Below are positions 3,951 to 64,000 of a stretch of DNA of 64,000 bases, one piece after another. The notes beneath the pieces are model-generated. The model made no database searches and was not told where the DNA came from. It saw only the letters and a list, made by a program, of their open reading frames with translations. Numbering within the stretch: position 1 is the stretch's first letter; the number at the start of each line of letters is the position of its first letter. The position numbers and the translations under genes were made by a program. Source of the stretch: Zygnema cylindricum (taxonomy: Eukaryota; Streptophyta; Zygnematophyceae; Zygnematales; Zygnemataceae); assembly GCA_037447655.1 (NCBI GenBank), contig JBBHKE010002729.1:226858-290857 (forward strand), in the 5' to 3' direction.

Positions 3951-4631
3951 TGATCACTCTAATTTATTCAAAGTAACATTGTTGATTCCGCATCCCAGCA
4001 AACGAAGGGCGAAACGTATCCCCAACAAGAAGGATAGAGAGGCCAGCTCAACCAAATAGTCAAATCGATCGCTCTAACCCAAAATCCAACTACGAGCTTA
4101 TTAATTGCAACAACGCAAACATACCCAATTAGAGCTAGAGTTACCGCAACTGCTGGTACCAGACTTGCTATCCAATGGGTTCTTGTTAAGGGATTTAGAT
4201 TGTACTCATTCTAATTACCAGACTCATATAGCCTAATATTGTTGTTTATTGTTAGTACCTTCTTTTGTCAGGGTTAGATAATTTGCGCGTCGGCTGCTAC
4301 CAATCAGAAGGTAAGCGATAATTGTCATGTTTTCCTTAAATTTACATATATGACACTGTGACATATGTAACATATTCCGATGAAGATTTTCCCTTAAATA
4401 ACTTGGGCTCATTGGGTTAACTTTCGGCTCAAAACAAGCTCGTATTTTGCGATGACGTGATTGGCTGACCTGTTGTATGATGCGATTCATTATCCGCCAC
4501 GTGGCGAAAACAGCGAAAAAAAAAACTGAACAGCGGGAAGAATAGAGAATTGTTAAAAAAAAAAAAATTTAGTCTCCTTTACGCGTCGAAGATCCCAAAT
4601 TTGGGCGACTACAGTACCGTACAGTACATTA

Positions 4632-20647: not shown

Positions 20648-23600
20648 TTACCTCTAAGATCATCATCTACTCGGAAACCTGAATAGATAGGAAGCTCAAA
20701 GTCATCACAATTTTCTGACTCAAATCTGATTTTGACTGTCTTTGTATGCTTAAAGGGATTTATAGATTTCCCTTCATCCATAACCACTTGATGCTTCACT
20801 GGGATTATATCTTCTCTCTTGAGATCATAGACTCTATATCCCTTTACATCTTCATCATATCCTAACATATATCCTGGTTTTCATTTTGGATCTAACTTCC
20901 AATTTGACTGATCTGTGTCTAGGCTAAACACTTGACTACTAAAAACCTTTGAGTATGAAACATCTGGTTTTCGGCCAGTCCATCTCTCATAAGGTGTTTG
21001 GCCTTTTACAGGTGAAGTAAGAACTTTTTTCTTGAGATAATTTGCAAAGTTAATAGCTACAGCCCAAAATCTCTTTCCTATCTTCTTATCTGGCAACATA
21101 CTCTTAGCACTATCACTTAATGTTCTATGTAACCTCTCGGCTACACCATTCTGCTCAGAATTTTTAAGAATTGTCTTTTAGTGTTGTGCTCCATCTTCTC
21201 TCATAAATTCCTCAAATTGATTGGAGGTATACCCACCCCCATTATCACTCTTTACTCTCTTAATAGAGGTTTCAAGGAGTTTCTCACTTCATGCTTTATA
21301 TTCCTCAAAAACCTGTGGGGCCTCTGATTTATTTTTCAAAAAATACATTGTAGAGTATCGAGACCAATTGTAGTGACTGTCATCATAAACCTCTTACCAC
21401 CGGGTGAGGGCACTTTGGCCGAACCCCAAATATCTGTGTGTACCAACACTTTTTCTCCTCTATAAGTGGCTTCCTTTGGGAAGGGTATATTGTGTGCCTT
21501 ACTTTGAGCACAACCACTACAGTCATTCAGGTTTTCATTTTCTTCAAAGTGAATTCCTTCCACTTTTCTCATCTTTTTCATTTCTTTTAACTTATCTAAA
21601 TGCACGTGTCCAAGCCTCTTATGCCACAACATAATATCATGAACACCAACATAGTAAAGTTTCTTCTTTATATTGCTTAAACTCAGCCAAAACATCCCTT
21701 GGCTACCTTTTTCAGCAGTGAAATAAACTTCCTCCTCAAAGGTAGCAGCAAATGTTCCCTTTCCTAGTGCTAGTCTCAAAACCTTTATAATCTAATACAC
21801 ACGTTGAGATGAGGTTTTTGTTTAACTCTAGGGTAAAAAACACACCAAAGAATCTCACTATGGATATATTTCCCTCCATTAAGACTTTCAGATCTACCGA
21901 TCCTACCATAGTAGTAGTGACTACCCTCCCATCCCCATACTGTATCTCTACGGTAGGAATCCACAATTCAACCCCCTTCACCTTCCAAACCTCTGAAAAC
22001 ACATTTTTGCTTGCGAGGAATTTTGACATCTGTCATCGCCTCCAACTCCTCATCCTTTGATCCTCAACAAGAGCTCACCGTCCTCGTCCTCACATTCTTC
22101 ATTGCTTACCTGAGTCACAAGAGCCTTTTTCTTTCCTCTAGGAGGTCCACCGATCTGCCCCTCGTTTAACCGAAGTTTGCTTAGCTTAGTGCACTCCGCC
22201 ATATAGTGCCTTCGTTTCTTACAAAATTGACAAAAACCCTAGGGAGCCCTCGGTCCGAACTCGTTAGTTTGATTATTTTGCCCCCCCCCTCCATAATTTC
22301 TGACTGGTTTCCTAGAATCATTGTTCCTCCAATCGGTCCTTGCTGCCAAGGCTTGCCCACTCTTTCCTCCCCTTTAGATCTCAATCGTGTTCTCCCAAAC
22401 GAGAATCATCCCTACCACTGAATTCTATATTCACCTTGAGTCCCACAAGTCATGGAAACGGTTGACTATGTTTTCGAACTCATGTGGTTACTTCATGAGC
22501 AAGCAGTTAACTTTTATCTTTTCACTTTCAACATGTCCTCCATAAAAGGTGTTGCAAGCTCATTACAAAAATCCAACATTTTCCCCCCTTTGTATACCTA
22601 TGTCTCAATTTTGTGATCAACCAACTGTTGTTGCTGAATTGTACCACTTCGGTACATCTCTATGAGAGCCACCCAAAGATCGGATGCCCTTTCTTCTTGC
22701 AATTGAGGAGATGCAAGCCCTTGAGTAAGATGGCGGAGGATGAAGTGCTTTGTCGCCATATTGTTGTAGTACCAAGTATTAGTATCATTCTCCTAGTTCC
22801 TCTGAATAAATGACATGAATGCAGAACCTGTTGCTACAAGTGTGATCGTCTTCTTCTTCTTTCCTTTGTCCACCACCTCCCCTTCCTTTGCTTCGTGTTG
22901 GAGATGCATTTGCATCTTTGGTGAATTTGCTTCCTTCAAACCCTGGAGGGATGCCAAGACCAGACGGACGCCTCACCCGTCCACTCACAATTCCCCAAAA
23001 TCTTTTCTCACATAGAGCTCCAATCATCTTACTTTCCCACTATATGAAGCCAGTTCTATTAAAGATGGGCACCCTAGAGGGTGGGCCCATAAGTTGCAAT
23101 TTTGAGACCTCCATAGGTCCTCAAAATTGGCAGCTCACACGAAGCCCTTAGGATAACCCTGACCCCTTTGTGTTTCAGCAAAAATAAGTACCACCCTGGC
23201 AGACAAAAACTTTGACCACCTCCACCCTTGTGAAGGCAAGACTCCCTTGTGTTGATAGCAAATAAAATCTCTAAATTTGCTCCCTTGAATAATCAGTTAC
23301 GAATGGTCAAAGTTGACTTTTTGTACAGGAGCTCTTTGGGATAGAGGCGGCTACCTACTTAATTTTTTGAAGTCCTATCTTCTTCTCTTATCCCTTACTA
23401 TTGACGTATGGCACCAATCGAAGTATTGTATCGTATATTATCGTATATAAAGGTACAAGTGTTGGTGTACTTTGTGTACGGCCATTGTACAACATGGCCA
23501 AAAGTTGACACATACGATATTTGGATTCGTTCCTATAATCCCCGGAGATGGCGCGAGCCAATGTGGTTGTACCACATGTCAATTGATGTGGCGGTGACCA

Positions 23601-37653: not shown

Positions 37654-37893
37654 GAAAAAACGGTTGGAAAAGGAGGCCCTTGAAAAACAAATTGAGAAAT
37701 ACCTTGCTGAACAGCCGGATAGCAACCCTCAAGGCACACCTCCGACCGCATATTCCGATATCGACAATGAGAAAGGCGGGGGGAGGAACAAGAAAAACCA
37801 GAAGAACCCATTTCACCGCCTGAAACTCAACCTCCATACTCCAAGCAAGCGATGAGGTTAGTAAGACACCTAATGCCATAAGCTCTCACCCAC

Positions 37894-38390
37894 GTGAAAA
37901 CCCTAGCTTCCTCCTATATCTTGCCAGAAGACATCCTCATTCAAGCCTTGGGGGAAGAAATTCATATAGGAAGAGAGAAAGTTGCTCTAGCAAACCTGTC
38001 CGAGACAGTCATTATGTCTTTGGAAGCAAAGACCCCTATTGTGGATAAGGATTACAAGGCTTTATTGGTGGCCCTCATTCTCAATCGAACTGGAAACTTC
38101 AAACTCAATGGATACACAGGATATCATGACGCCGTGGTCGATACCGGCACTTCCTTAGTTGATAATCACTTTGGCTCTGCAATAGATGCTCGAGGAACTC
38201 TGGTCTCATATTTGCCCAAGCGACATTTGCCTGAGCACGGTTAGCAGCGGAAGCCAACCAGTCCACAAGATTATTAAAGCCATGACCATTGAGTTTTCCA
38301 ATGACGCTGGCCAACAGGTCCGGATTCAACTCCCTTTCCTGGTGGTGCAAGGTAAGTAGTTCGAAATTATGTTGGGGATAGCTACGTGGA
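37894..38390 (+). pseudogene. retropepsin-like protease of element E
   Basis: The frame leads into HDAVVDTGTSLVDNHFG, where D-T-G (Asp codon 38140) is the catalytic triad of retroviral-type aspartic proteases. After a frame change near 38244 it continues as MTIEFSNDAGQQVRIQLPFL, then FEIMLG at 38372, which fits the C-terminal L-G turn of retropepsins. One TAG interrupts it near 38360. The D-T-G spacing to the methyltransferase is discussed under element E. Confidence 0.6.
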
Positions 38391-40400: not shown

Positions 40401-43254
40401 AGGAAAAAGATGACGTAACCTAACTGAAAGAAGAGATTGTGGAGCTACTTCTTAAACCAAAAGCCATCGAGAAGCATGCGGACATTCTACAGAGACAAAA
40501 GTGTGCTTTCGGAGGTAAGAGGGATCCACCTGAGGATGGGTTGATCAAAGACTCAGGGGCCGGTTTACTAAATTAAGAAAAATTCCAACAGTTGAGATAG
40601 AGTATGGAGATGATAGAGTAGAAACCATAAGTCTTATTTGATTGGTTGATTTAAAAGTTCTAGTTGATGGAAAGGCTTCACTTATAACACTCTCAGATGT
40701 TCTTTACATTCCACAGCTTAGCAAGAATTTAGTCTCTACAGCTGTTCTAGATGAAAAAGAGTTCGAAACCGGAACTAAGAATGGAATCTTCACAGCTAGC
40801 TTTGATAATGAGGTTTATTTCATAGCTAAAAAGGGTAGTCAAGGAATTTTCAGAATTGTACTTTGCTATAAAAAGGGTGTTCTCTACTCATGTGGAAGTG
40901 ATATGATTTGGCACAAGAGGTTAGGGCATGTGAATCTAGATAGATTAAACAAAATGAAGAAAAAGGGAATATTGTATAGAATTGAGTTTAGAGATGATGA
41001 GACCTTAGATGATTATAGTGGATGTGCCCAAGGAAAGATTCATAAACTTCTATTTCCAAAGGCATCCACATTTAGAAAAGAGAAAGTATTAGATCTAGTT
41101 CACATTGATGTTTGGGGACCAGCTAGGTATGCTTCACACGAGGGGAAAAGATGGATGCTAACCATTACAGATGATTGGTCTTAATACACTAAGGTATATT
41201 TCCTTAGACATAAGTCAAAGGTACTAAGGTGTTTCAAAGAATAAAAAGTATGGAGTAAAAAATTACATGAAACCTCACTAAAGGAGATAAGAAGTGATAA
41301 TGGGAAAGAATACACCTTAAAGGAATTTGAAGAATTTTTTAAAGAAGAAAGAATCCATCATGAGAAAACTGTTCCTTATAATCCAAAACAAAATGGAGTA
41401 GCGGAAAAAGTTAATAGAAATTTAGGAGATATGTTGAGAAGCATGCTAACGGATAAAAAAATAGGATTGAATTTTTGGGCTAAGTTTATGAACTATGCTA
41501 ACTTCATCGAAAATAGAGTGTTAACTTCGGCAAATAAGGAGGAAACTCCGTATGAAAGGTGGACAAGAAGAAAACCAGATTTGTCTAGTTTGAGAGTGTT
41601 CAAAGTCAAGTCTATAGTTTAGATTCCGATAATACTAAATGGAAGTTAGAAGGAAGAGGGAAACCAGGATATCTTGTAGGATATGATGAGAGCACAAAAG
41701 GATAACGAGTGTATGACTTGAAAAAGAGAGATATCATTTTGGTAAAACACATAGTGGTGATGAATGAAGTAAAGTCTATTGATCCTGTCAAATATAACAA
41801 AGAAGTTAAAATCAGATTTGAATCAAGTCAGTATTCTGACTTTGACTTGGGAAATGAAGAGAAGGAAGACGCTCAGAAGGAAAAATCTGCATATGTGCCA
41901 ACGGAGAAGGACGAAAAGACAACATCCGAGGTGACACCACAATACTAAGGGGAAACCGACGAGGAACTTGATCAAACACCGGAAATGGAAGATAGGGGAG
42001 ATGAAAATCTTACAAAACAAAACCCGAGGATTCCTTCTATGCTGGCGTCAAATTTTGAAGGAGGAAAAAAAAGCAGTAAACGGCTTTAAGAAAGACATGT
42101 AAATGACAAACTTACAAAGATGTCTCACTCAGAAGAACCTCATACATACTTTGAGGCCATAAATACTCAAAAAGAAGCCGGTGGATCACTGCCATCAATG
42201 AAGAAACGACCTCTATCATGGAAGCCAATACATGGGAGTTGGTAGATTGTCCACCAGACAGAAAACCGATTGGGTGTAAGTGGGTTTTTAAGCTTAAACT
42301 AAACCCGTATAATACCATTGAAAGATATAAGGCTATGGTGGTGTTTAAAGGTTATACTTAGAAAGAAGGAATAGACTATGAAGAAACCTTTACACCCGTA
42401 GTCAGATTCCCTTCTGTCAGAATCCTCTTAAGTTTAGCCGCAACATAGGATATGGAAATACACCAGATGGAGATTAAGACCGCCTTCTTAAAAGGAGAGT
42501 TGGAAGAAGAAATCTACATGAGACAACCGGAAGGATTCGTTGAAAGTGGCGAAGAAAGCAAGGTGTGCAAAATGATAAAGTCACTTTATGACATTAAGCA
42601 AGCCCCGCGGCAATGGAGCATAAAATTGGACGAGTTTTGACAAGTTTGGGATACATTAAAATAAGTTCAGATCACTCGATATATATATTTGAGGATGAAA
42701 ATGGAGTGATATTTATTGCTATTTATGTTGATGATTTGTTAGTCTTAAACAAGTCCTTAGATAAAATTAACAAACTCAAACAAGATTTGAGAAGTCGGTT
42801 TGGCATGAAAGATCTCGGCGAAGCAAAATATATTTTGGGGATTCAAATTGAGAGGGATAGAGGGTACATAATTATAAGACTCACTCAAAAAGATGTTATT
42901 GATAATATGCTGGAAAAGTTTTAGATGGAGAAAGCAAATGGGTGTACCACTCCCATGGATCTAAAAAAATGTATCGCAGGGGAGTGAAGAGGGAGGGATA
43001 TTGATTTTGAATGATAAGGTGGATAAAGAATAAAAGAGGTTTATGGAAGGAATGGCTTATAGGCAAATTGTAAGCAGTTTAATATACTATGAATTGTACA
43101 CGTCCAGACATAGCTGCGGCTGTAGGTGTTCTCAGTAGACGTCTAAATGAACCTATGAAAGAAGACTATGAAGCAGCCAAAAGAGTGATTAGATATTTGG
43201 TTGGAATAAGGGAGTTATGGTTGCATTTGGGAGGGGAGCACAATGACATCACCA
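40401..43254 (+). pseudogene. copia pol of element C, first part
   Basis: Ty1/copia polyprotein remnant. Near 40550 is a decayed protease D-S-G-A. Integrase at 40880-41620 has HKRLGHVNLDRLNKMKK, CSGC-like YSGCAQGKIH, VHIDVWGP and PYERWTRRKPD. Reverse transcriptase at 42440-42924 has [19 protein letters not shown] and a YVDD box at 42724-42735. The RNase H start (LGGEHNDITT) ends at the B insertion. TAA, TAG and TGA stops and frameshifts recur (e.g. 41182, 41620, 42638, 42922). It belongs to a different subfamily from A, B and F, judged by wording. Confidence 0.85.
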
Positions 43255-44299: not shown

Positions 44300-44312
44300 C
44301 TCCCGTTATTTT

Positions 44313-47300
44313 CTAGTCAATCTTTAATTTCAGACCACACTTCTCCCTGCAGAAAATTAGCTTAGGGGAAGGCACAGGTTTGGTCATCATATATGCTACC
44401 ATCTCACTATCTGGTCGGTACTCTAAACTGATTATTTTGTTTCCTACTTTCTCTCTAACAAAGCTGAGTCTAATGTCCATGTGTTTGGCTTTAAAATGAT
44501 GTTTAGGATTGGCAGAAATAGCGATTGCTGCCTGATTATCACAAAATATTTTCTGCACACCACTCTTAAGGTGACCAAGCTCACCAAGCAAAGACTTGAC
44601 CCACATCAATTCTTTTACAGCAGAGCAAGAGGCCATATACTCAGCCTCCATGGTGGACTGAGCAATAACCTTTTGCTGTTTGCTACTCCAACAGCAAGCC
44701 CCATCACCCACATATAATACATATCCAGAAAGTCATCTCCTCATTGGAGCATCACCATAAGTGGCATCAATCCAAGTTGTGATATCAGTATTCTCCCCAC
44801 CCAAATGCAACCATAGATCCCTAGTTCCTATCAAATATCTAACGACTCTCTTAGCTGCAGCCCAAACCCTTTTAGTGGGAGCATTTAGACTTCTACTCAA
44901 CACTCCTACAGCTGCAGCTAAATCCGGCCGGGTACAATTCATAAAAAAGATTAGACTTCCCACTACTTGCCTGTAAGGAAAAGTCTGCATGAACTTCTGT
45001 TCTTCAAGAGATAATTCATCGTCTAAGACTATGACTCCTTCTTCCTCACTCCCCTCACTTCCTTTGTTCACTCCATTGGAGTTGTACAACTATTATCTTT
45101 ATCAATTTGAAATTTTTCAAGCATGTTCGCTATTGCTTCTTTTAGAGTCAATCTTATAATTTTTCTTTTTCGGTCTCGTTCTACTTGAATTCCCAAAATA
45201 TTTTTTGCTTCCCCCATATCTTTCATTTCAATTCTCCCCTTAAGATCGGTTTTCAGTTTATTATTTTTTCCCATTGATTTACTTAAAACAAGCAAATCAT
45301 CAACATAAATTTCAAAAAATATAAAACCTTCCTCATCATCGAAAACATAGATTGAGTGATCTGAGCTGATCCAGATATATCCCAGACTGGTAAGAAACTC
45401 ACCAAGCTTCTTATTCCACTGTCGAGGCGCATGTTTCAAACCATAAAGAGATTTAATCAGTCGTCATACCTTACTCTCCTCTCCTTCCTCCACAAAACCT
45501 TCGGGTTGTCGCATGTAGATCTCCTCTTCCAATTCTCCATGCAAAAAGGCTGTCTTGATGTCCATCTGGTGCACTTCCATGTCTTCCGCTGCTACCTGGC
45601 TGAGAAGTATGTGGACGGAGGGAAATCTGACCACCGGGGCAAATGTTTCCTCGTAGTCAATTCCCTCCTTTTGTGTAAATCCCTTTGCCACTAGTCGGGC
45701 CTTGTAGCGCTCGATTGTGTTATCTGGGTTCAGTTTTAATTTGAAAACCCACTTACAGCCGATTCGTTTTCGGTAAGGTGGACAATCCACGAGCTCCCAA
45801 GTATCGGCTGCCATAATTGAGGCCATCTCCTCATTGATGGCTGTCTTCCACCGATTTTTTTCTGGACAAGTCATCGCCTCTCTATGAGTTTGAGGTTCAT
45901 CTTTATGAGATAGTTTAGTTACCTTGTTATTAACCTCTTTTTCTTGCAGTCTTTTGATACTTCACCTTCCTCCCTCAAAATCTATGGCCGGAATAGATGG
46001 TTTTCGTGGGTTCTTTCGAACAATCTCGACATCTCCCCTTTCCCTTCATTCCGAATTAGTTTCCACCACCTCTTCCGCTTAGGTAGAGTTGTCACTAGAG
46101 TTTCCTTAGGCGAGTTCTTTTTGGTCTGATTTACGCGTGCAAGAATGTCATCTTCTCTAAAACTTGGATAGTTAGGAAGTTCTAAGTCATCGGAATTTTT
46201 TAACTCAAATCTGATTTTTACTGACTTTGTATATTTGAAGGGATCCATGGACTTTTCTTCATCCATAACTACTAGATGATTTACTAAGATTATATCTTCC
46301 CTTTTTAGATCATAAACTCTATATCCTTTAACATCCTCATCATATCCTAATAAGTATCGCGGTTTTCCTTTAGGATCTAGCTTCTAATTAGACCGATCTG
46401 TATCTAGACTGAATACTTGACTGCCGAAAACCTTTAAGTGAGATATGTTTGGTTTTTGGCCTGTCCATCTCTCATAAGGTGTTTGATCTTCTATAGCTGA
46501 AGTAAGAACTCTATTTATGAGGTAATTAGCACAATTCATTGTTTCGCCCAAAACCTTTTTCCTACCTTCTTTTCTAACAACATACTTGTAGCACTATCAC
46601 TTAGTGTTCTATTTAACCTTTTAGCTACCCTATTTTGTTTCGTGTTTTCTGGAACTGTCTTTTGGTGTTGGACCCCATCTTCCCTCAGAAAATCCTCAAA
46701 CTGGTTAGAAGTATACTCTCCACCATTGTCACCCCTTATTCTCTTGATTGGAGTTTCATGTAGTTTTTCGCTCCATGCTTTATATTGTCTAAAACAATCC
46801 TAAGTTTCGGACTTGTTTTTCAAAAAATACACTCGGGAATATGGAGACCAATAATAAGTGATAGTCATCATAAATCTCTTCCCCCCCGGTGAGGGCACTT
46901 TAGCCGGTCCCCAATTATCAGTGTGTACTAGATCTAGAATTTTTTCTCCCTTATAGTTGGCTGTTTTAGGAAAGGGTAATCTGTGTGTTTTACCTTAAGC
47001 ACATCCACTAGAATCACTTATATTATCACTCTCATTGAACTTAATCCCTTCCACCACTCCCATCTTTTTCATCTCTCTTAACTTGTATAGATTCCAATGC
47101 CCAAGCCTGTTATGCCATATCATAATATCATGAACACCTGCATAATAAAGTTTCTTCGTTTCATTACTTAAAACCAGCCTTAACATCTCATGGCTACCTT
47201 TCTCAGCAATGACATAGACATCCTCCTCAAAACTAGCAGTAAAGACTCCTTCCCTAGTGCTAGTAAAAAAACCCTTATCATCTAATAAGGATGTAGAGAT

Positions 47301-48530
47301 GAGGTTTTTGTTCAGCTCCGCAATAAACAATACATCAGAGAATGTTACTATGGATGTCTTTCGTTCTACTAACACTTTCAAATCTACCGATCCTACAAAA
47401 GTAGTGGTGACTATCCTCCCATCCCCGTACTCTATCTCTACGGTGGGAATATTTCTTATCCTAGTGAACAGGTGCCTATCCTTACACATGTGCATGGAGG
47501 CACCTGAATCTATAATCCTGCCTGCTTCACCTTTTAATCGAACGTAAGCACATTTCTGCCTTCGTGGAATTTCGACCTCATTATTCGCAACCAACTCCTC
47601 ATCTAAAAAGAGCTCATCGTCCTCGTCCTCGGATTTCGCCTCATGTACTTGTGTCACAAGGGCCTTTTTCTTTCCTCTTGGGGTACCACCAGTCTTCCCC
47701 TCCTTTAACCGAAGCTCGGTTAGCTTAGTGCACTCTGCCATATAGTGCCCAGGTTTCTTACAAAAATGACATAAACCTTTGGGAGCCTTTGGTTCGAACT
47801 CGTTGGTCTGATTTTTCTGCTCTCTCCCCCCATAGTTTTCCGACTGATTTCCGAGAATCCTTGTTCCTCCAATCGGTTGCAGTTGCCAAGGCTTGGCCAC
47901 TCTTTCCTCCCCTTCGAATCTCAATCGTATTCTCCCGAACGATAATCAACCCTACCACTGAGTTCCATATCCACCTTGAGTTCGGCAAGTCCTGCACACG
48001 GTTGACTATGTTCTCGAACTCATCGGGTAACTTCATCAGTAAACATTTAACCTTTTATTTTTCACTAAAATATTTTCCCGCACTCTCTAGCTCCATGAAG
48101 AGTGTAGCAAGCTCATTGCAAAAATCCAACATTTTCCCCCCTTTGTATACATACTCCTTAACTTTCTAATCAGCCAGCTGTTGTTGCTGAATCGTACCAC
48201 TTCGGTACATCTCTATGAGAGCCATCCAAAGATTGGATGCTCTTTCTACCTGCAAACAAGGACATGCAAGTCCTTGAGTGAGATGGCGTAGGATGAAGTG
48301 TATTGCCGCCATATTGTTGAATTCCTAGGTTTCAGTATCATTCTCTTCGTTCTTCGGAATAGGTGAAATAAATGTCGAACCAGTTGCTATTGGTGTGGTC
48401 GCCTCCCTCTCCTTTCCTCTGTCCACCACCTCTCCTTCTTTTGTTTCCTCCGTTGAAGGTGGATCCTCTTTCTTGGTGAATATGCTTCCTCCAAACCATG
48501 GAGGGATTCTAAGACTTGATGGACACTCCA
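44313..48530 (-). pseudogene. gag-pol of copia element B
   Basis: Read on the minus strand. Gag runs from about 48530, with an intact C-X2-C-X4-H-X4-C knuckle (CHFCKKPGHYMAEC, about 47730-47770). Protease IIDSGASMHM lies near 47510. Integrase N-terminal HNRLGHWNLYKL and SGCA occur near 47000-47110, then DNA for VHTDNWGP near 46930. RT at 45068-45874 has EVHQMDIKTAFLHGELEEE and YVDDLLVLS. RNase H at 44313-44711 has STMEAEYMASCSAVKELMWV and ends CGLKLKID. Breaks occur near 46990 (stop), 46540 (GGCGAAAC shift), 45990, 45465 and 45070-45090. All catalytic blocks are recognisable, so it is a recent but inactive copy. Confidence 0.9.
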
Positions 48531-51054: not shown

Positions 51055-51342
51055 GAATACGGGAAGGACTATTGTTTCCGTTGTTTAGGTGCTACCATGT
51101 CTATGCCACAACCACTCTTGCAGATCTCTTTGCTAGCTCAACAAATATAGCCTAGGCGATTTAGCAATTCCCTATTTCTAAGTAGTGGGTAAAGAAATAC
51201 CAAAAAAGATTATTATAGGTAGCCAAACTTCGGTGAGAGGTAAACCAAACTTGCAGCGATAATACCCAAAGGCACGATGTACCTTAGGTCATAACCTTTG
51301 GATCTCCCCACCGACGGTAAGAGATTCAACTAACAAGTGGTG
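51055..51342. other. protease-methyltransferase linker of element E, decayed
   Basis: No continuous frame. The length matches the linker of element D when combined with 38391-38490. Confidence 0.4.
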
Positions 51343-52144
51343 TAATTGATGATTCTGGAATCAAGACTCTGAATTTATCTCTATTTTATGGAATCACTTT
51401 TGATATGGAAGCAATTCTGAAGGCAGGATACCTGGTGGAGGACTATGCAGCGGTAGAAATAGCATCAGAAGCTCGAGATGTCAGTGACCACCATCTCCAA
51501 CAACTTTACCAGCTGTATCTGCAACAACTACCTGTGTCCTCCATTTCCAACTCTCACATGAAGCTCCCCCAGAATGTGGACAACATTATGACCTCTCATT
51601 TATAAAGTCTGGGGAAGGGTGGATCTCGTAATGTCTGGCTGGCCTTGTCAAGGATACTCCTTAGTAGGACAAGAAAAGGGACACCAAGATAGCCAAAGTA
51701 AAACTTTCTTCGAGATGATTCGGTTGATCTCAAAAATAGAATTCAACGAGGAAACGCCAGTGGGGTACGTATTAGAAAATGTTCACCCAACACATGACAA
51801 AAGGAAACATGTTGCCAGCAATTGGTATCAAATCAAGCATATTTTGGGGGCACCATTAGTTTTTGATGTACCACTGATGGGATAGAGGTCACATAGAGTT
51901 AGAGCTTATTGGACCAACCTAGTACCACTCTCAATTCTCAAGCAATTATTGGCTAGACAAGTTCTACACCCCCAAATTATGGTCCAACTAATTCTGGGGA
52001 AGGGGCGGATGGCTACACCTGTGACCACAACTGACAGGTCCCCGTTTTTTCCGTTGTAATACACCACGAGTCCCAAGACGAGCATTTCCAGCCCTAGTCT
52101 CTTTCCCAAACAACCACGATTACAATGAAGGAGCCCCAAAAATG
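51343..52144 (+). pseudogene. cytosine-5 DNA methyltransferase domain of element E, broken
   Basis: C5-methyltransferases transfer a methyl group from S-adenosylmethionine to cytosine in DNA. Motifs are in canonical order. Motif I is LSLFYGITFDMEAILKAG with GIG decayed to GIT (51375-51430), followed by YAAVEIASEARDV (motif II region). Motif IV is SGWPCQGYSLVGQEKG with the catalytic Cys codon at 51646-51648. Motif VI is YVLENVHP (Glu codon at 51775). Motif VIII is SHRVRAYWTNL (about 51890-51923). A motif IX-like PRRAFPALVSFPNNHDYNEG lies at about 52068-52130. At least two frameshifts (between I and IV, and near 52045) plus TAA and TAG stops break it, and D's LTR removes motif X. No BAH or chromodomain is seen. 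It is not DRM-type, because the motif order is not permuted. Confidence 0.8.
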
Positions 52145-53331: not shown

Positions 53332-54934
53332 AGAGCAGAAGAATTCATGCTTTCATTCTTTCTTTCTCTCATTTTGGAAGATTTGACCTAAACTTTGAGG
53401 ATTTTTCTTGTGAAATTGTCAAGATAGTTTTAGTGACTATTTTTCTGGTCATTAAGCATTCCGCTGCTTAGCTCTTACTTTCTTTCTTTGTAATCTGCGT
53501 TGCAATTCAATCTACGCGGCTCACGCCGAAGCCTAACCGGTTTCCTTTCACTTCTTCGCTCGTCCTATGAAGCGGATTGCTGCTCAACCTTCTTTCTTAG
53601 GCTGTTGCTAAACCTTGGATTGCGATTGGACAAATTTGGGTTTGCTTGTGTGGTTTACTAGGGGATAGTGGATTAGGGTTGGCTTTCCTTATATGTTTTG
53701 TGTGTGACTAAATCTGGTTATCTCAGATTTGCTTGCAGTTTGCTTCATTTTTAGTTTATGTGTTGTGATATTAGGTTGAATATTTATTTAATGAACTCCT
53801 GTAAGGAATATAAACTAACCAAGGAGCCTACTGGCTATCCGTTGACTTAATATTCATGTGCTCTTGAAATTGTGAGCACTTTCTATTTCGTGTAATTTGG
53901 CATTGTCTGTCTTGCTCTATTTTCTGCGATTCGACATTGTCAGTGTGATTCTTTTTTTCGCAATTTTATGTTGACAATTTTTCTATATACTCTGTAATTT
54001 AAAATTGTCAGTTTTTCTCTATTTTGTTCTATTTAGATTTTACATTACTTTTGTGTGTTTGTGCGATCTGATTATAGATCCTTGCATTTTGCAATATTCT
54101 TCTAAGTTGTACTTGTTTGTTTGAAAAAAAAATAAACTAAAGAAAAAAAAAATCTATAACTAGTTTTGCAATTTTAATTATTGTTTGCTTGTTAGTTGAC
54201 AAAATCATCTCATTGGCATGTTTTTCGGCCAAAAATATACTACACTAATTTGGGTATTTGGGGTTTTCCTTGCTAGCCCCTTGTTGATCGGAGGCATCGA
54301 TCTTTCACATTGTGACATACCTCACCAAAGAGTGGAGAGAGTGGAGATGATTCGTTTTTAGGAGCTCTGCAAATCTCCGGTTGGAGTAAACAACCGCAGT
54401 TCACCCTTCGCAATCACCAGATTGCTAAGAGTGGTTTGTGAGTTCACTATGCCTTGCGGGTGTAGGCGCGTGTCAAGATAGTGGTTGATCGTTTAAAGGG
54501 GACGTGAGTGGATTGGGTCCACCTGGACCTAATTGTATTGAGCATTTGCACTGTCCTCACTTTCAATGCTTGCCATCTTGCCGTGAGTGGCCTTGTGTTT
54601 TTCTTGTTGTCTGTTTCGCGTGGAATTTTATTATTAGATCTGGCCGTTGGTGGCCTTAGATAGAACTATTTCCTGCCTGTGGAGCTTTAGATCTACACCT
54701 CCGGGTGCTTGTTTAGCAGTTTTCTGCTTTTATAGATCTGGCCTTTTGGCCTTGCCCACTCGTTTGCAGAGTAGATGTTTCAAAAAAGGCGACCTCTTGA
54801 CTAGATCTTGCCATTATGGCCTTGTTAGAGACTTTTTGAGATTGTTGCCTACGTATGTGGTATGGTTTGGCATTTGTTGCACCTCGTATAAGGCGTATCC
54901 ATTAGCAGATTAGTTTGTTATCTCAGTCATTTTT
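53332..54934 (+). other. leader of element D, non-coding
   Basis: T-rich sequence without a long frame. At 53860-53879 it holds an exact inverse of 53317-53336, the 20 bp spanning the LTR end and the first leader bases. Confidence 0.5.
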
Positions 54935-56407
54935 ATGCCCACTAATTGGGATAATTTTGACCACTCATACGGATCTACACATAGTGGTGGAACTTTCCTT
55001 TCATCAAATTTTGATCAATCTAATTCATCAAATTCGGTTCCTTTAACGTTAAGTCCTTTAATCAAATCTATAGCGTCTTCTACTCGTTCAGATTTAACCA
55101 CTGTATCATCTTTGTCATCCATTTTTTCCACGCTATCTGTGGAAGAGGTTGATAACGAAAGGGAACCCTACTCAGATTTTCTTTCTTTTTGGTCTCTGTT
55201 AGCACAGATTCAGGCTTGGAATTTGACTAACTTGTGTCTTTTGATGGCCTCCACATCGGAGGGTACTCCTGGTAAACTTCTATTATGCTTTTCCCGAATG
55301 AAAGATACCATGTGTTTATCTCATTTTTGAATGTTATTCGACACTGAAATGCGAGATCTAGCTTTCCGTTATCAAGATAGATTTGACATGCGTGTTGCTT
55401 TCTCCCTTCTCGGGCATTACCTTTGCGGGTTCGCCCTTACCTTATATTCCCGCAAGTATGATGGCATACTTGCGATGACTGAATATTCTCCACAGTTTGT
55501 TGGTACGCGTGAGGTAATAGGTCAAACAGAAATTCCGTATGAAGCTGTTATTTCCGAGGCCTTGGATACGCATGACAATATTATTTACCCGGCTGTGGCG
55601 GAGGTCCCCCACAAATATGCTATTGCAGCCCGAGCCGGCGTCCCGGCACGACCCGGGATGACTATTCCGTTACGAGACCCTCTCACCATAATGTTTAATT
55701 TGTTACAAGAGGAGTATCGCATGCAAAATCTTGACCAAGTTAAGGAATTAATGAATTTTGAGCGTAAACCGGGCAAAACTTCCCCCGCTTTACGAGCCCG
55801 CATAGAGACCTTGCGGGAAGCGTTACCCGATTTGATATCAGATGTCAAAGTTGCCCAAAAAGTTGTGGGACAGTTTCTTTTCCAGTCAAAGAAATTTATT
55901 CAAAGCCATTTTACCCAAACATACGGTCTCAACTTTACGTTCGACCAGGTAGCTCAATACGGCATAGAACACGAGATGACGAATTGTTGGTGGGAGGCCC
56001 ATGATCCACCAAAAGCCCCTCAAAAAGAAACTAACTCTTTCAATTTCCCAAATCCTCGTAACTTGGGGCCAAATAATCGGCCACCAAGGGTCCCAGCCAT
56101 GGGGACCCTTCCAAATCAACCATCTAATCGGATTTGTTTCCGATGTGGCAAGATCGGGCATGATGCTCGGATGTGCCCGGATAAATCTGCAACCTGTACA
56201 TACTGCAAACAAATCGACCACTTTGTGTATCATTGTCACATCAAAAACCTTGAATTTTCATATCAAAATCAGATTCAAAATGGTGGAATACCCGCTGGAT
56301 CTGCAAAGGTATTCCAACCAGTTAAGAGCCACAAAAAAACTCTCCACCTAAAATGTCTCGGAGAGAAAAAGAAAAAGAGAAAATGCAAACTCAAATGGCC
56401 ACTATGA
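54935..56407 (+). pseudogene. gag of element D with two zinc knuckles
   Basis: One frame from MPTNWDNFDHSYG, interrupted by a single in-frame TGA at 55328-55330, running about 490 codons. The Ser-rich N-terminal part is followed by a helical capsid-like region. Two C-X2-C-X4-H-X4-C knuckles, CFRCGKIGHDARMC (about 56135-56176) and CTYCKQIDHFVYHC (about 56195-56236), bind nucleic acid in retroelement nucleocapsids. The frame then shifts at an A-run near 56331, after which the product continues in another frame (REKEKEKMQTQMATMIKD). Two tandem knuckles separate it from the single-knuckle copia gags in this window. Confidence 0.85.
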
Positions 56408-56429
56408 TCAAAGACTAGTTTGCAGCCCT

Positions 56430-57250
56430 TATGGCTCAAATGAAACTGCCAACTCTCCTAGCCGGTATTGCTCATACAATTGTCCACCTTCCCACGCTAG
56501 CTGGTCGAGTTTTACGAGATTCAACCATTCAAAAGCGGGCAACCACGTTTGGCAAGGGGACCGTTGATCACAATCGCGAGGGTAAACAGTCTAGCACCCG
56601 TCTACCATTATCATTTTTCAAAGAAACTGGAAACAATTTGCCCGAAACAGCTTCCACCATCACGGCTGAAGCACTCACTATTCAGGACCGCTCTATTCAC
56701 GACAGCCATAGGGTTAAGGAAAGATTATGTATTTTGTCTACTATGATTTTTGATTCACCCAACCTAAAAACTACGGTCACATCCATCCCATTTGCAGCAT
56801 TACATGCTTTACAAATGAACCATAATCTTGACGCTCTTAGGCCTATCTCTACCAACGAGCTTAGTTCACTTAACCCACACATCAGTTTTTTAGATAATGG
56901 GAAGGGTGCATTTTCAGTCAATGGTGTCATTCCGTCATTACCACTTATGGACACTGGTGCGAAACCAGTTATTTTGGGGTCATCTTTTGCAGTAAAACTA
57001 GGTCTCATAGCTGAAAAACTTCAGTCCACTTCCACACGTTTACTCACCTCAGCGAGAACAATCAAACCAGTTTTGGGCATTACAAAGGATCCACTCAGTT
57101 TTTCGGTTTCACAATGGTACAAAATCTGATTTTGCAAAAGTTCATGCTCACGCGTTGGTCACCAAATGTAGTGATTACGAGTGTTTAGTGGGGCAAGATG
57201 TGATTTTCAGAGTAAGAGGCGACGTTGATATGTAGGATCAGACATTTTCC
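56430..57250 (+). pseudogene. retropepsin-like protease region of element D
   Basis: The frame 56431-57129 contains PLMDTGAKPVILGSSFAVKL, the D-T-G-A active site (Asp codon 56950). After a frame change near 57115 it continues with DYECLVGQDVIF, the typical retropepsin C-terminal block, then a TAG at 57233. Position between gag and the methyltransferase fits a gag-pol protease. The first 150 codons are linker without motifs. Confidence 0.8.
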
Positions 57251-57322
57251 TACCATCTTACCAATTATCCGGAAAAGAAAATTTTTCTCCCTCTAACTTC
57301 AGCACGCCAACCCATACCCATT

Positions 57323-58519
57323 ATGGCTCACGTAGCCCAATCTGTGCCTGCTTATTCTAGAAATTTGGTGGGATTTGAAATTTTTCATTCTCTTTCCGCA
57401 AAGGAAATTTTGCCCGACATTCCTTCTTTGCCTGAACTTTTCAATAATTCAGGTTTTATTATTGATTCTCCAGAGTTAGATCACATCTACAAACACACCC
57501 TTCAGATTCCTTTATCGCGGGTTCCACCTCTTCCTCTTATTTTTGTAGATCCTTCCGGTTTTCTTCCCATTAATTGGAAACCAACCCAAGTCAAACCTCA
57601 TCTGTATGGTCTGGTCATTTTAGACCTATTTGCAGGCATAGGTACCTCTCTACTCTCATGCCTTCGCAACGGATTACTTATCAAGCACTACTACTCAGTT
57701 GACACTGACCCTTTAGCTCGGAAAGCCCAAACACATCAGTGTAATCTTTTACACAGACAATATCCACACCTTTTCCCTAAATCTGCCTTTGCTCACAAGC
57801 ATACAGCCTTACCTTAAGATATCCGTTTGATAGGCAACTAACACTTTCTCGATGTGGAACCATTTAACCTTCTCTTTGCCGGTTGGGAGTGTCAAGGAAT
57901 GTCACGAGCAGGCAAAGGTCTAGGCTTAGCTAACCCTCGCACAAAATTATTCTTTGAATTACTTTGCATCATGCATTTTTTGCAATCATTCGATCGACCA
58001 TTGGGATATTTTTTGGAAAAAGTGGCAGCCTATAACGATCCTCGACCTACAGTATTAGCTGATTACAAACGTATAAAAGCATTAATTGGTCCTCCTCTTA
58101 TCATTAATGCCACTCACCACCGCTCCTAAGCTCATCGTGTTCAATCTAAATGGAGTAACTTGATTGATATTGGATGCCTTAGAGAAGGAAATCTTTGTGT
58201 CACACCCTTTTTTACGGATATTCAGACTGCACTTTTTCCTTTTCACAAAGTCCAAACTTGTCTACAACCTGATCACCTGTCAAATTACAACATTAACTTC
58301 TCAGGCCAACCACTCAAAGTTCTCCCCACTCTAGTGTTTTATTCCCACTCTCACGCTTTCTCTAGTGATGGGCCTCGCATGCTCAGAAATAGTCATAAAG
58401 GCGGCCTAGATGAACCTACAGCCACAAAACGAGAACACCTTATGCATTTCCTTCCCAACATTACGGCTGCCCATGGATACACAGAACGACAGCGCTGCAT
58501 CCTTTTATGTCATGTCATG
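57323..58519 (+). pseudogene. cytosine-5 DNA methyltransferase domain of element D
   Basis: A single reading frame from 57323 to the A insertion, broken only by three TAA codons (57815, 57839, 58127) and no frameshift. Motif I is LVILDLFAGIGTSLLSCL (about 57611-57664, Phe codon 57629), followed by YYSVDTDPLARKAQ (motif II region). Motif IV is FAGWECQGMSRAGKG, where the usual P of PCQ is E and the catalytic Cys codon is 57890-57892. Motif VI is GYFLEKVAA with Asn replaced by Lys. Motif VIII-like AHRVQSKWSNL lies near 58130. A short recognition region follows, then PTLVFYSHSHAFSSDG (IX-like), LDEPTATKREHLMHFLP and RQRCILLCHVM (X region), cut at 58519. About 140 residues upstream of motif I have no known domain. 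The missing P and N and the stops suggest inactivity. Confidence 0.85.
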
Positions 58520-59540
58520 TGTAGAACTAATGGTTTTTAAGTATTTTCTAGGTCTGAAAAGAAATATAGAAGCCAAGGCAGTCTATCTCTAACTTCTCTC
58601 TCCAACTCTCAAACTTGTCGCAGTCACTGAGAAATTGGAGAGGAAGCTAGAGCCATGGCTACCTAGGCTATCTTGAGGTTTACGGGAAATTTATATTAGT
58701 TAGGGTTTATTTGTTTAAAAGGTATGTGCCGGCGATAGGAATTGATCCTTGTACCTACCGGCCAGCAGACAGGAAATAGCCGGTAGCCTTAGCCGTTAAG
58801 TCTAGGATTCATGTTACGTAGTATATTGTTTTATAATTAATAAAATATGTATACGTACGATTATTCATTTAACTATAATAGATTACGTGATACATAGATC
58901 CGCTAATATATAAAGTACGGATTACGGTATGGACTAAAAATCAATACTGCGCATTTGTTTTGTAAGTGAAACAAATACCGCACATGTATTTATTACAGCT
59001 TCAATTAAATTAGATTTTCATCGGACGGCCGCATTAAGCGCCGAGATCACGGAGGAAGATTTCGGCGGTTTGTGCCGAAATTACGTTGGATCGTGGAATC
59101 TCCGGAGATTATGGCACCGAATCCGGATATGACATGTGTCGACATTTAGGCCTTGTCGTACAATGTCCGTACCTAAAGGACACCGGCAGCTGTACTTTTG
59201 CGTACGGAACTCAATTCTGATTGGTTCCGTACATCTGTAGATAGAGTTTGTGAGAGAGATATGACTTAGAAAAATTAGAAGATAGGACCCCCTCTTCAGA
59301 GAGCTTCTGTACAAAAGGTCAACTTTGACCCTCCATAACTTACTGCTCAGGAAAGCAAATTCAGAGATTCTTTTTGCTATCAACTCAGAGAAGTCTTGCC
59401 TTCACACGGGTGCAGGTGGTCAAGGTTTTTTGTTTGCCATGGTGGCAGTTATTTTGCTGAAACACAAAGGGGTCAGGATTATCCTAGAGGCTTCTTGGAA
59501 GCTGTCTACTCTGAGGACTTATGGAGGTCTCAGAGTTACA
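58520..59540 (+). repeat. 5' LTR of element A
   Basis: It runs TGTAGAACTAATGG to TCTCAGAGTTACA. It contains the AAGCCAAGGCAGTCTATCTC block, CCATGGCT, an antisense tRNA-like patch (58727-58802), an inverted CCAAT word (TGATTGG near 59217) and GTACGG words. The same LTR family occurs at B and F. Confidence 0.9.
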
Positions 59541-59579
59541 AGTTATGGGCCCACCCTCTAGGGTACTAATCTTTAATGG

Positions 59580-62500
59580 AACTGGCTTCATATACTGGGA
59601 AAGTATGATGATAGGAGCTCTATGCGAAAAAAAGGTTTTGGGGGATAGTGAGTGGACGTTTGGGGCGTCCATCAAGTCTTAGAATTCCTCAAGGGTTTGG
59701 AGGAACCAGATTCACCAGGTAAGAGGATCCACCTTCAACGGAGGAAACAAAAGAAGGAGAGGTGGTGGACAAAGGAAAGGAGAAGGAGACGACCACACCT
59801 ATAGCAACTGGTTCGATATTCATGTCACCTATTCCGAGAAATGAGGAGAATGATACTGAAACCTGGGACTTCAACAATATGGTTGCAAAGCACTTCATCC
59901 TACGCCATCTCACTCAAGGACTTGCATGTCCTCATTTGCACGTAGAAAGGGCATCCGATCTTTGGATGGCTCTCATAGAGATGTACCGAAGTGGTACGAT
60001 TCAGCAACAACAGTTGGCCGATCAGAAAATTAAGGAGTATGTATACAAAGGGGGAAATATGTTCGATTTTTGCAATGAGCTTGCTACACTCTTACTAGAG
60101 CTAGAGAGTGCGGGAAAAGATTTTAGTGAAAATGAAAATGTTAACTGTTTACTGATGAAGTTACCTGATGAGTTCGTGAACATAGTTTACCGTGTGCAAG
60201 ACTTGCTTGACTCAAGGTGGATATGGAACTCAGTGGTAGGGATGATTCTCGTTCAAGAGAATACAATTGAGATTGAAAGAGGAGGAAAGAGTGGCCAAGC
60301 CTTGGCAATAGCGTCTGATTAGAGGAACAGGGATTCTCGAAAACCGGTCGGAAACTATAGGGGTAGGGAGCAAAAAAAACAGGCCGACGAGTTCGAACCA
60401 AGGGCTCCCAAAGGTTTATGTCATTTTTGTAAGAAACCGGGGCACTATATGGGAGATGGCACTAAGCTAACCGAGCTTCGGTTAAAGGAGGGGCAGACCA
60501 GTGGTACCGCGAGAGGAAAGAAAAAGGCCCTTATCACACAGGTACTTGAGGCGGAATCCGAGGACGAGGACGATGAGCTCTTTTTGGATGAGGAGTTGGA
60601 GGCGAAAAATGAGGTCAAAATTCCACGAAGGCAGAAATGTGCTTACGGTGGATTGATTGGTGAAGCAGGCTGGATTATAGATTCAGGTGCCTCCATGCAC
60701 ATGTGTAAGGATAGACACCTGTTCACTAAGATAAAAAAGATTCCCACCGTAGAGATATAGTACGGGGATGGGAGGATAGTCACCACTACTCTTGTAGGAT
60801 CGGTAGATCTAAAAGTGTTAGTAGAAGGAAAGACATCCATATTAACATTCTCCGATGTATTGCTTATTCCGGAGCTGAACACAAATCTTATCTCTACATT
60901 AGTAGTAGATGATAAGGGTTTTTTCACTAGCACTAGGGAAGGAGTCTTTACTACTAGTTTTGAGGAGGATGTCTATTTCATTGCTGAGAAAGGTAGCCAT
61001 GGGATGTTTAGGCTGATCTTATGTAATGAAAAGAAAAAACTTTATTATGCTGGTGTTCATGATATTATGATGTGGCATAATAGGCTTGGGCATGTGAATC
61101 TAGATAAGTTAAGAGAGATGAAAAAAATGGGAGTGGTGGAAGGGATTAAGTTCAGTGAAAGTGATGATATAAGTGATTGTAGTGGATGTGCTCAAGGTAA
61201 AGCACACAGATTACCCTTTCCTAAGTCAGCCACCTATAAGGGAAAAAAAGTTATAGATCTAGTACACACAGATATTTGGGGACCGGCTAGAGTGCCCTCA
61301 CCGGGGGGGAAGAGATTTATGATGACTCTAACTGAAGATTGGTCTCGATATTCCCGGGTATATTTTTTTAAAAACAAGTCCGAAGCTGAGGATTGTTTTA
61401 GACAATATAAAGCATGGAGCGAAAAACTCCATGAAACTCTAATCAAGAGAGTAAGGAGTGACAATGGTGGAGAGTATACCTCTAACCAGTTTGAGGATTT
61501 TTTGAGGGAAGATGGGGTTCAACACCAAAAGACAGTTCCTGAAAATCCGGAACAAAATGGGGTAGCTAAAAGGTTAAATAGAACACTAAGTGATAGTGCT
61601 AGAAGTATGTTGTCAGATAAAAAGATAGGAAAAAGGTTTTGGGCATAAGCAATGAACTGTGCTAATTACCTCAAGAATAGAGTTCTTACTTCAGCTATAA
61701 AAGATCAAACACCTTATGAGAGATGGACAGGCCAGAAACTAGACATATCTCACTTAAAGGTTTTCGGCAGTCAAGTGTTCAGTCTAGATACTGATCGGTT
61801 CAATTGGAAGCTAGATCCTAAAGGAAAACCGGGATACTTATTAGGATATGATGAAGATGTTAAAGGATATAGAGTTTATGATCTAAAAAGGCAAGATATA
61901 ATCTTAGTAAAGCATCTAGTAGTTATGGATGAAAGAAAGTCTGTGGATCCCTTCAAATATACAAAGTCAGTAAAAATCAGATTTGAGTCAGAAAATTCCG
62001 ATGACTTTGAGCTTCCTAACTATTCAGGTTTTAGAGAAGATGACATTCTTGCAAATATAAATCAAACCGAAAAGGACTCGGTTGTGGAAACTCTAGTGAC
62101 AACTCTACTCGAAGCGGAAGACGTGGTGGAAGTTGTTTCTGAATCAAAGGATAGGGGAGAAGCCGAGTTTGTTCGAAAGAATCCACGAGAACCATCTATT
62201 CCAACCTCAGATTTTGAGGGGGGGAGGAGAAGTAGCAAAAGACTGTCAAGAAAAACAGGTTAATAACAAGGTAACTAAACTATCTCATCAAGATGAACCT
62301 CAAACTTATGGAGAGGCGATGACTTGTCCAAAAAGAAATCGGTGGAAGACAGCCATCAATGAAGAGATGGCCTCAATTTTGGCAGCCAATACTTTGGAGC
62401 TGGTGGATTGTCCACCTAACCGAAAACGAATCGGTTGTAAAAGGTTTTTTAAATTAAAACTGAACCCAGAAAACACAATCGAGCGCTACAAGGCCCGACT

Positions 62501-63881
62501 AGTGGCAAAGGGATTTACACAAAAGGAAGGAAATGACTACGAGGAAACCTTTGCCCCGGTGGTCAAATTTCCCTCCGTCTGCATACTTCTCAGTTTAGCA
62601 GCGGCGGAAGACATGGAAGTGCATCAGATGGACATCAAGACAACCTTTTTGCATGGAGAATTGGAAGAGGAGATCTTCATGCGACAACCCGAAGGTTTTG
62701 TGGAGGAAGGAGACGAGAGTAAGGTATGCCGGCTCATTAAATCTCTTTATGGTTTGAAACAGGCACCTCGACAATGGAATAAGAAGCTTGATGAGTTTCT
62801 TACCGGTCTGGGATATATTCGGATCAGCTCATATCACTCTATCTATGTTTTTGAAGATGAGGAAGGTTTTATATTTATTGCAATTTATGTTGATGATTTG
62901 CTTGTTTTAAGTAAATCAATGGAAAAAATTAACAAACAGAAAACCGATCTTAAGGGGAGATTTGAAATGAAGGATATGGGAGAAGCAAGATATATTTTGG
63001 TAATTCAAGTAGAGAGAGACCGAAAAAGGAAAATTATAAGACTGACTGAAAAGGAAGCAATAGGGAACATGCTTGAAAAATTTCAAATGGATAAAGCTAA
63101 TAGTTGTACAACTCCAATGGAGATGAAGAAGGGAAGTGAGGGGAGTAAGGAAGAAGGAGTCATAGTCTTAGACGAGGAATTATCTCCCGATGAACAGAAG
63201 TTCATGCAGACTATTCCTTATAGGCAAGTGGTGGGAAGTCTAATCTATTTTATGAATTGTACTCGGCCAGATTTAGCTGTAGCTGTAGGAGTGCTGAGCA
63301 GAAGTCTAAATGCTCCCACTAAGAGGGATTGGGAGGCACCTAAAAGAGTCCTTAGATATTTGGTAGGAACTAGGGATCTATGGTTGCATTTGGGTGGGGA
63401 GAATATTGACATCACTACTTGGAGTAATGCCAGTTATGGTGATGCTCCGATGAGGAGATGCACTTCAGGATATGTATTATATATGGGTGATGGGGCTTGC
63501 TGTTGGAGTAGCAAAAAGCAAAAGGTTATTGCTCAGTCCACCATGGAGGCTGAGTATATGGCCTCTTGCTCTGCTGTAAAATAATTGATGTGGGTCAAGT
63601 CTTTGCTTGGTGAGCTTGGTCACCTTAAGAGTGGTGTGCAGAAAAATTTTTGTGATAATCAGGCAGCAATCGCTATTTCTGCCAATCCTAAACATCATTT
63701 TAAAGCCAAACACATGAACATCAGACTCAGCTTTGTTAGAGAAAAAGTTGAAAACAAAATAATCAGTTTAGAGTACAGACCAGATAGTGAGATGGTAGCA
63801 TATATGATGACCGAACCTGTGCCTTCCGCTAAGCTAATTTTTTGCAGGGAGAAGTGTGGTCTGAAATTAAAGATTGACTAG
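59580..63881 (+). pseudogene. gag-pol of copia element A
   Basis: Gag from MIGALCEKK (59608), frame changes near 59680, main gag frame 59762-60322 ending in TAG. The zinc knuckle CHFCKKPGHYMGDG (about 60420-60460) has lost its last Cys. Protease WIIDSGASMHM lies near 60672-60704, and a TAG follows at 60758. Integrase 60815-61648 has HNRLGHVNLDKL, CSGCAQGKAH, VHTDIWGP, VRSDNGGEYTS and PENPEQNGVAKR, then TAA at 61646. RT 62133-63400 has EVHQMDIKTTFLHGELEEE and an intact YVDD box (62886-62897), after a frame change near 62200. RNase H has STMEAEYMASCSAVK, then TAA at 63582 and a tail to 63881 ending CGLKLKID. The polymerase core is open and catalytically plausible. Confidence 0.95.
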
Positions 63882-63894
63882 AAAATAAGGGGAG

Positions 63895-64000
63895 TGTAGA
63901 AATTAATGGTTTTAAAGTATTTTATAGGTCTGAATAGAAATATAGAAGCCAAGGCAGTCTATCTCTAACTTCTCTCTCCAACTCTCAAACTTGTCGCAGT
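63895..64000 (+). repeat. 3' LTR of element A, partial
   Basis: It begins TGTAGAAATTAATGG directly after the polypurine tract AAAATAAGGGGAG (63882-63894) and continues to the window edge. It matches 58520-58625. Confidence 0.9.

Follow-up and report, generated by a model that had tools for sequence, protein, structure and literature searches.

A decayed Ty3/Gypsy retrotransposon of Zygnema cylindricum belongs to a large family with a predicted DNMT3-type methyltransferase in pol

In a 64,000-nt stretch of the genome of the streptophyte alga Zygnema cylindricum (contig JBBHKE010002729.1, positions 226,858 to 290,857; hereafter the window), we analyzed element D, which an initial annotation had described as a long terminal repeat (LTR) retrotransposon encoding its own cytosine-5 (C5) DNA methyltransferase. 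By alignment with residues 21-1242 of an uninterrupted 2395-residue frame from the same genome, D was found to cover 54860-58519 on the plus strand; the element itself is real, and the extent of 56430-58519 first given to it was too short. Its reading frame shifts near 56335 and again near 57101, there returning to the first register (tblastn). The gag region (54860-56338, +; tblastn residues 21-517, 51.9%; zf-CCHC E 0.00036) has internal stops and an open frame at 55331-56404 (+), and two CCHC zinc knuckles were read directly at 56135-56176 and 56195-56236 (+), present as first noted, yet upstream of the start assigned to the element. The gag-to-protease piece follows in a shifted frame (56332-57102, +; tblastn residues 516-770, 59.7%); Asp_protease_2 scored below its cut-off on it (E 0.0023, 19 bits), and the DTGA protease motif noted at the outset was read directly within 56947-56967 (+). 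The protease end and the predicted DNMT3-type methyltransferase domain (hereafter DNMT) occupy 57101-58519 (+; tblastn residues 770-1242, 67.0%; family profile).

Translation of the frame 57323-58519 bore out its three TAA codons, located at 57815, 57839 and 58127. Motifs I (57620-57649), II-like (57698-57727), IV (57878-57904), VI (58013-58033), VIII (58130-58153) and X (58502-58519), conventionally numbered, occur in the order initially described. Motifs VI and VIII are damaged, reading EKV and HRVQ in place of the ENV or ENI and the HRVR of most D copies, and motif IV reads ECQ rather than PCQ, like most other D copies. With its TAA codons, frame changes and damaged motifs VI and VIII, the window copy of D is dead. 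When the three window DNMT pieces were compared with the family's own profile, E-values of 4.5e-29, 8.6e-24 and 1.7e-20 were obtained, which argues against chance resemblance. The PF00145 profile, proposed as a check in the initial annotation, matched 57881-58129 below its cut-off of 22 bits (E 0.0038, 17.1 bits) and gave no match to the other two pieces, and succeeded on the uninterrupted relative at 44.4 bits.

Right after DNMT motif X, D is interrupted by a Copia element (58534-64000, +) with a 5′ LTR reaching to ~59540 and a 3′ LTR from ~63900 to beyond the window, the LTR pair being 92.9% identical over 1,002 columns (L018:1-1001 vs window 58567-59540). Past the Copia, outside the window, D resumes at C2053:291800 (from L018:1001 on) with residues 1241-1781, which comprise the spacer, the reverse transcriptase (RT) and the first half of RNase H (RH). 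No integrase (IN) part of the window copy turned up within the 4 kb examined beyond the Copia.

The uninterrupted 2395-residue D frame has the Pfam order DNMT-RT-RH-IN-PHD (PF00145, RVT_1, RNase H, integrase zinc finger, rve and PHD), with the PHD finger at 38.1 bits (cut-off 24), and zinc knuckles and a DTGA motif were seen by eye upstream of its DNMT. The RT and integrase that the initial annotation had proposed to look for are thus both present in the D family, and the RT and part of the RNase H of the window copy lie outside the window. One D element (L009/L015) has direct LTRs of 931 bp that are 100% identical, indicating that it moved recently; in the flanks of one element, no clear target-site duplication was seen by eye. 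A second subfamily, E, encodes DNMT-RT-RH-IN-PHD within one 1525-residue frame (Pfam), with its PHD at 21.5 bits, below the cut-off of 24, and with gag-like and protease-like frames separate from the pol frame. The E-type RT matched 4ol8 best among PDB entries (E 2.6e-77), and the corresponding stretch carries the name Ty3 in 7q5b. An rve integrase and the RT-RH-IN pol order were present in one frame each of the D and E types, and a tyrosine recombinase layout does not apply to D or E, the integrase being rve. D and E are Ty3/Gypsy LTR retrotransposons.

Searched with PF00145, the 352.8 Mb genome yielded 782 first-look candidates, and all of the 123 scored were above the cut-off. With the D DNMT as the query, at least 114 matches at 64-100% identity were obtained (114 of 1882 candidates scored), including the window copy at 69%, while the E DNMT gave at least 117 matches, most at 61-100% identity (116 of 1875 candidates scored). 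These copy counts cover the window's own genome and are lower bounds, with a few rows that look like assembly duplicates. Within the fetched flanks of 30 D loci, the best of the list, the protease (PR), DNMT and RT were arranged as PR-DNMT-RT at 24, PR-DNMT at 5 and DNMT-RT at 1. Protease and DNMT, which the initial annotation had joined in a single element, therefore occur together well beyond the window, and its claim of an LTR retrotransposon encoding its own C5 methyltransferase is supported, for a whole family, by these loci and by the open frame. The D/E family is large and recently mobile.

Through three database searches, 119 proteins were collected (121 when D and E were added), for which the named sources were Marchantia polymorpha, Closterium sp. 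NIES-53, Klebsormidium nitens and Haematococcus lacustris, most others being metagenome or EukProt entries. DNMT precedes RT in 18 of the 121 (class A) and follows RNase H in 49 (class B); 25 are partial relatives (17 lean to A and 8 to B), and 29 showed DNMT alone to the profiles. Four Marchantia records (P0003, P0007, P0014 and P0019) carry PR-DNMT with no RT within the record. The partial K. nitens record KFL_009030040 (P0034), presumably KnitGypsy-Dnmt3 itself, reads PR-DNMT-RT-RH-IN and stands on the class-A side with D and E in the pol trees, so that, of the related or independent capture initially considered, a related one fits better. Among 41 short database matches, another retroelement domain was found in 13 and DNMT alone in 28, some on long contigs, and stand-alone DNMT genes are possible among these 28. 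No relative was found in single-protein scans of viral contigs. Two further records were observed: P0041, a metagenome protein that is DIRS-like by look, is labelled with PF00145 plus PF05869, the Dam adenine methylase, perhaps placing two DNA methylases in one element; and P0112, a cluster of DNMT fragments with 320 members in JGI metagenomes, points to a very abundant host of such elements.

DNMT, RT and IN are combined in 55 proteins (45 class B and 10 class A), 50 of which were used for trees, with 7 partial proteins added to the DNMT tree; the supports given here come from quick trees. One branch divides A from B in each of the pol trees (support 99 for RT and 97 for IN), and in the DNMT tree class B forms one clade (support 98) with the class-A clades as a grade around it. 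This clade includes P0077, which is labelled A from its protein record, yet groups with B at near identity. The outgroups of the DNMT tree were a partial human DNMT3A and one DIRS-like enzyme only (support 36). Clades common to the DNMT, RT and IN trees are E with P0001, D with P0044, and Closterium with P0024, P0045 and P0052, and 25 of 47 inner splits are common to the DNMT and RT trees. Among 49 elements, the distance correlation was 0.71 between DNMT and RT (0 of 2000 permutations as high) and 0.67 between RT and IN. Median A-B identities were 36.8% for DNMT, 41.5% for RT and 41.1% for IN, and the medians to DNMT3A and to the one DIRS-like enzyme were 25-30%. Because the DNMT and pol trees and distances agree, the A-B identities are alike and those to the outgroups are lower, these comparisons favour one DNMT capture that would have been followed by relocation inside pol. 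Two captures from one common source are possible, as the trees cover, besides the outgroups, these DNMT-bearing retroelement proteins rather than native green DNMT3 enzymes or DNMT-less sister elements, and rooting with Ty3 did not settle A against B.

To judge the kind of enzyme, PDB sequences were searched, and the best matches were DNMT3A/3B for the D DNMT and DNMT3A, 3C and 3B for the E DNMT, followed by bacterial C5 enzymes and, for E only, a weak DRM2 match. The modelled protein was the metagenome relative P0080, which has 47% identity to the E DNMT and stands in for the D enzyme; its predicted structure (pLDDT 92.4) had only DNMT3 entries among the 50 best fold matches listed. Compared with viral structures, the model matched a phage C5 enzyme best (E 3.1e-20, TM score 0.60), and compared with DNMT3A it gave an E-value near that of the phage enzyme and a higher TM score (E 1.7e-20, TM score 0.69). 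The rearranged motif order of DRM enzymes was not seen in the window copy or in the D and E frames, where motifs I to X are in sequence. The D/E methyltransferase is DNMT3-type as predicted from its sequence and from the modelled fold of its relative. To our knowledge, the proline before the catalytic cysteine is otherwise nearly invariant among C5 methyltransferases. Among the rows in which motif IV was found, glutamate occupies this position in 8 of 15 class-A rows, with P0077 counted as A though the tree puts it in B, and in 28 of 33 class-B rows, with proline in the rest; the E-type row of the motif table labelled 'window', which has D letters at its end, was left out. ECQ occurs in several clades, namely D, the Closterium group and most class-B enzymes, and the E-type enzymes keep PCQ.

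A stop-free DNMT was found in 10 of 35 D rows, which correspond to 34 genomic places, L004 and L046 being the same place counted twice. Across all 35 rows, which include broken copies, the counts of intact motifs were 19 for motif I, 21 for WECQGMS, 24 for LENVAA or LENIAA and 20 for AHRVRSKW. We then compared the ratios of nonsynonymous to synonymous divergence (dN/dS) in pairs limited to dS 0.05-1.2, which share ancestry and are not independent. Among open D copies, the median dN/dS was 0.10 for DNMT (27 pairs) and 0.09 for RT (11 pairs), as against 0.20 for the protease-to-DNMT stretch (26 pairs) and 0.23 for the spacer after DNMT (18 pairs); in pairs with at least one broken copy, the corresponding values were 0.20, 0.20, 0.35 and 0.31. 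This indicates that the DNMT of D is under purifying selection equal to that of its RT. In close E-type pairs, dN/dS was 0.12-0.39 for DNMT and 0.08-0.24 for RT, so the constraint on the E-type DNMT is somewhat lower than that on the E-type RT.

Behind the integrase, a PHD finger was detected by profile in 53 of the 64 proteins with both DNMT and integrase. It is missing in the Closterium protein and its three relatives and degenerate by eye in P0001, and the K. nitens record P0034 stops short of its position. The D finger came nearest to the PHDs of PHF12, BAZ2B, WSTF, KDM5 and PHF21A, among others, several of which bind histone H3 unmodified at lysine 4. It resembles readers of this type and may be one.

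Traces of methylation in the DNA were then evaluated. For D, the CpG observed/expected ratio was 0.88-0.94 (five copies), with 0.74 for the copy in the window. E gave 0.62-0.63 (two copies), with 0.42 for its short piece in the window, and the DNMT-less Copia of the window gave 0.55-0.59 (two copies). Derived C-to-T changes in D copies, in which L004 and L046 are again doubled, reached 6.2% at CG, 7.8% at CHG and 3.1% at CHH sites. The Copia pairs gave 10.9/10.9/5.1%, 20.0/18.9/12.2% and, for the most diverged pair, 40.8/18.3/21.7% (CG/CHG/CHH), so that two of the three share the CG and CHG excess of D and the most diverged has a CG excess only; in this comparison, where alignments were restricted to the plus strand, 16 of the 28 D loci and one of the four E loci could be aligned. 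Common to D and two of the three DNMT-less Copia pairs, the pattern looks like host methylation at CG and CHG. The genome also has SBP domains, with 7 matches at 4 places and none in 14 control genomes, a set that included no named eukaryote; such domains are known from green plants, and together with the CHG signal they make a streptophyte host likely. Self-methylation of D read from CG loss was not supported, as CpG in D is high and the C-to-T bias is common to two of the three Copia pairs; the initial suggestion that the element could mark its own copies likewise found no support in these traces.

Taken together, we read D as a dead copy of an old green Ty3/Gypsy lineage with a DNMT3-type domain in pol and usually a PHD finger, whose DNMT would methylate new copies or insertion sites de novo, a reading in which we place about even confidence. 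Its observed parts aside, we infer three steps: the polyprotein would be cut so that DNMT is carried along in the preintegration complex or the particle; a tether formed by the PHD finger would dock the integrase on histone H3 tails, probably with lysine 4 unmodified; and DNMT would then methylate de novo the new DNA copy, the insertion site or both. An integrase tether and a DNMT3-type enzyme in the same polyprotein suggest delivery to chosen chromatin with methylation on arrival. The newcomer would probably gain by resembling already silenced chromatin, which would let it evade defences aimed at foreign DNA that lacks methylation, or keep the damage to its host low. More tentatively, and at somewhat less than even confidence, we propose an old Ty3/Gypsy lineage of green algae, liverworts and related organisms that combines a PHD reader with a DNMT3-type writer; the enzyme would have been captured once, long before Klebsormidium, kept with pol thereafter and moved once in pol (DNMT before RT in A, between RNase H and integrase in B), new copies being targeted and methylated on arrival.

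Several observations weigh against de novo methylation guided by a PHD finger. Glutamate replaces proline before the catalytic cysteine in D and most class-B enzymes; no PHD was found by profile in 11 of the 64 proteins having DNMT and integrase; the E-type PHD is divergent, with weaker matches, the closest being Cph2 and MLL3; and CpG is higher in D than in DNMT-less Copia, the opposite of self-inflicted CG loss, with E near Copia. The widespread change from PCQ to ECQ, which could shift the substrate, together with the lack of excess CG loss in D, would suit a DNMT acting on RNA or an RNA:DNA hybrid (genome RNA, the tRNA primer or first-strand cDNA) and aiding replication rather than acting on chromatin; RNA methylation has also been raised for SymbioLINE (de Mendoza et al. 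2018, PMC5890265). We consider this unlikely, since DNMT3 came first in the searches and in the modelled fold, and the E-type enzymes retain PCQ.

That DNMT instead marks host DNA broadly or restrains the element, low damage being what is selected, appears less probable again: two large subfamilies within one genome and the CG and CHG decay in D copies and two of the three Copia pairs would agree with it, but ordinary host methylation gives the same decay. A slightly lower probability attaches to a DNMT domain that no longer catalyses and is retained because it serves pol structurally or by binding nucleic acid. This would account for the glutamate in D and most class-B enzymes and for the loss of motif VI and VIII residues in the window copy, and it sits poorly with motifs intact in 19-24 of 35 D rows and with the dN/dS of 0.10 among open copies. 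An accidental fusion, in this window, of a retroelement with a methyltransferase gene of the host, which the broken and interrupted state of the window copy might suggest, is given almost no weight, as any chance or one-off fusion is ruled out by the D alignment, the family-profile scores, the PR-DNMT-RT arrangement at 24 of 30 loci, and the proteins of other organisms in which DNMT and RT occur together.

Cytosine methylation is a standard weapon against transposons, and a successful element that keeps its own DNMT under RT-level selection therefore poses a testable paradox. Such elements or pieces of them are found in records named for two streptophyte algae, one liverwort and one chlorophyte. 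The family offers a natural experiment on how an element may benefit from methylating DNA, and its PHD finger hints that reader and writer already come as a pair that could serve locus-specific methylation.

Upstream of D, an E-type DNMT retroelement piece lies at 51165-52144 on the plus strand (57.8% and 49.0% identity to the E pol frame by tblastn; family profile) and ends within its DNMT domain, so D may be nested within the DNMT domain of an E element, with Copia elements between. An open frame at 37882-38241 (+), which by eye resembles the protease-side frame of E elements (L011), perhaps belongs to the same E copy, split by later insertions. Other Copia copies in the window are located at 44300-47945 (−), 40642-41619 and 21339-21791 (−). 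A decayed eukaryotic SSU rRNA fragment at 4119-4354 (−; 90.1 bits) is the sole rRNA match in the window.

Among known systems, chromoviruses carry a chromodomain at the integrase C-terminus, and D likewise has a histone-reader-type module at this place, which in D is a PHD finger and shares its polyprotein with a DNA methyltransferase. In animals, DNMT3A/3B carry an ADD domain; like them, D joins the DNMT3 catalytic type with a finger predicted to be of an H3-reading type, whereas RT and IN separate enzyme from finger in D, which would presumably be split by the protease. A published precedent exists in KnitGypsy-Dnmt3 of Klebsormidium nitens, which, as presented in the main text of PMC5890265, is a Gypsy LTR element with an unrearranged DNMT3-type domain within pol under purifying selection, a single green alga being treated there as a separate acquisition. 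D resembles it in having DNMT inside a Gypsy pol and in grouping with the K. nitens record, and differs in several respects: one D element has plain direct LTRs, while a figure legend of PMC5890265 gives KnitGypsy-Dnmt3 a DIRS-like repeat structure; D carries a PHD, which the main text of that paper does not mention and before the place of which P0034 ends; motif IV is ECQ in D and PCQ in P0034; and D and E form two subfamilies, each with >110 scored copies. According to the same main text, which raises RNA methylation as an option for SymbioLINE, SymbioDIRS-Dnmt3 and SymbioLINE-Dnmt of dinoflagellates are also retroelements with DNMT, that of SymbioDIRS being DNMT3-type like that of D; they use tyrosine-recombinase or LINE machinery, in contrast to D, an LTR element with an rve integrase. 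A passage of PMC12344493, citing PMC5890265, mentions DNMT3 in 'LTR Copia and DIRS' elements. In the titles and abstract starts that searches of the open literature brought up, subscription papers being beyond this coverage, no DNMT retrotransposon was found with a PHD or outside Klebsormidium and dinoflagellates. Compared with these systems, what is new here is the PHD finger, the wide green distribution with agreeing DNMT and pol histories, and the two positions of DNMT.
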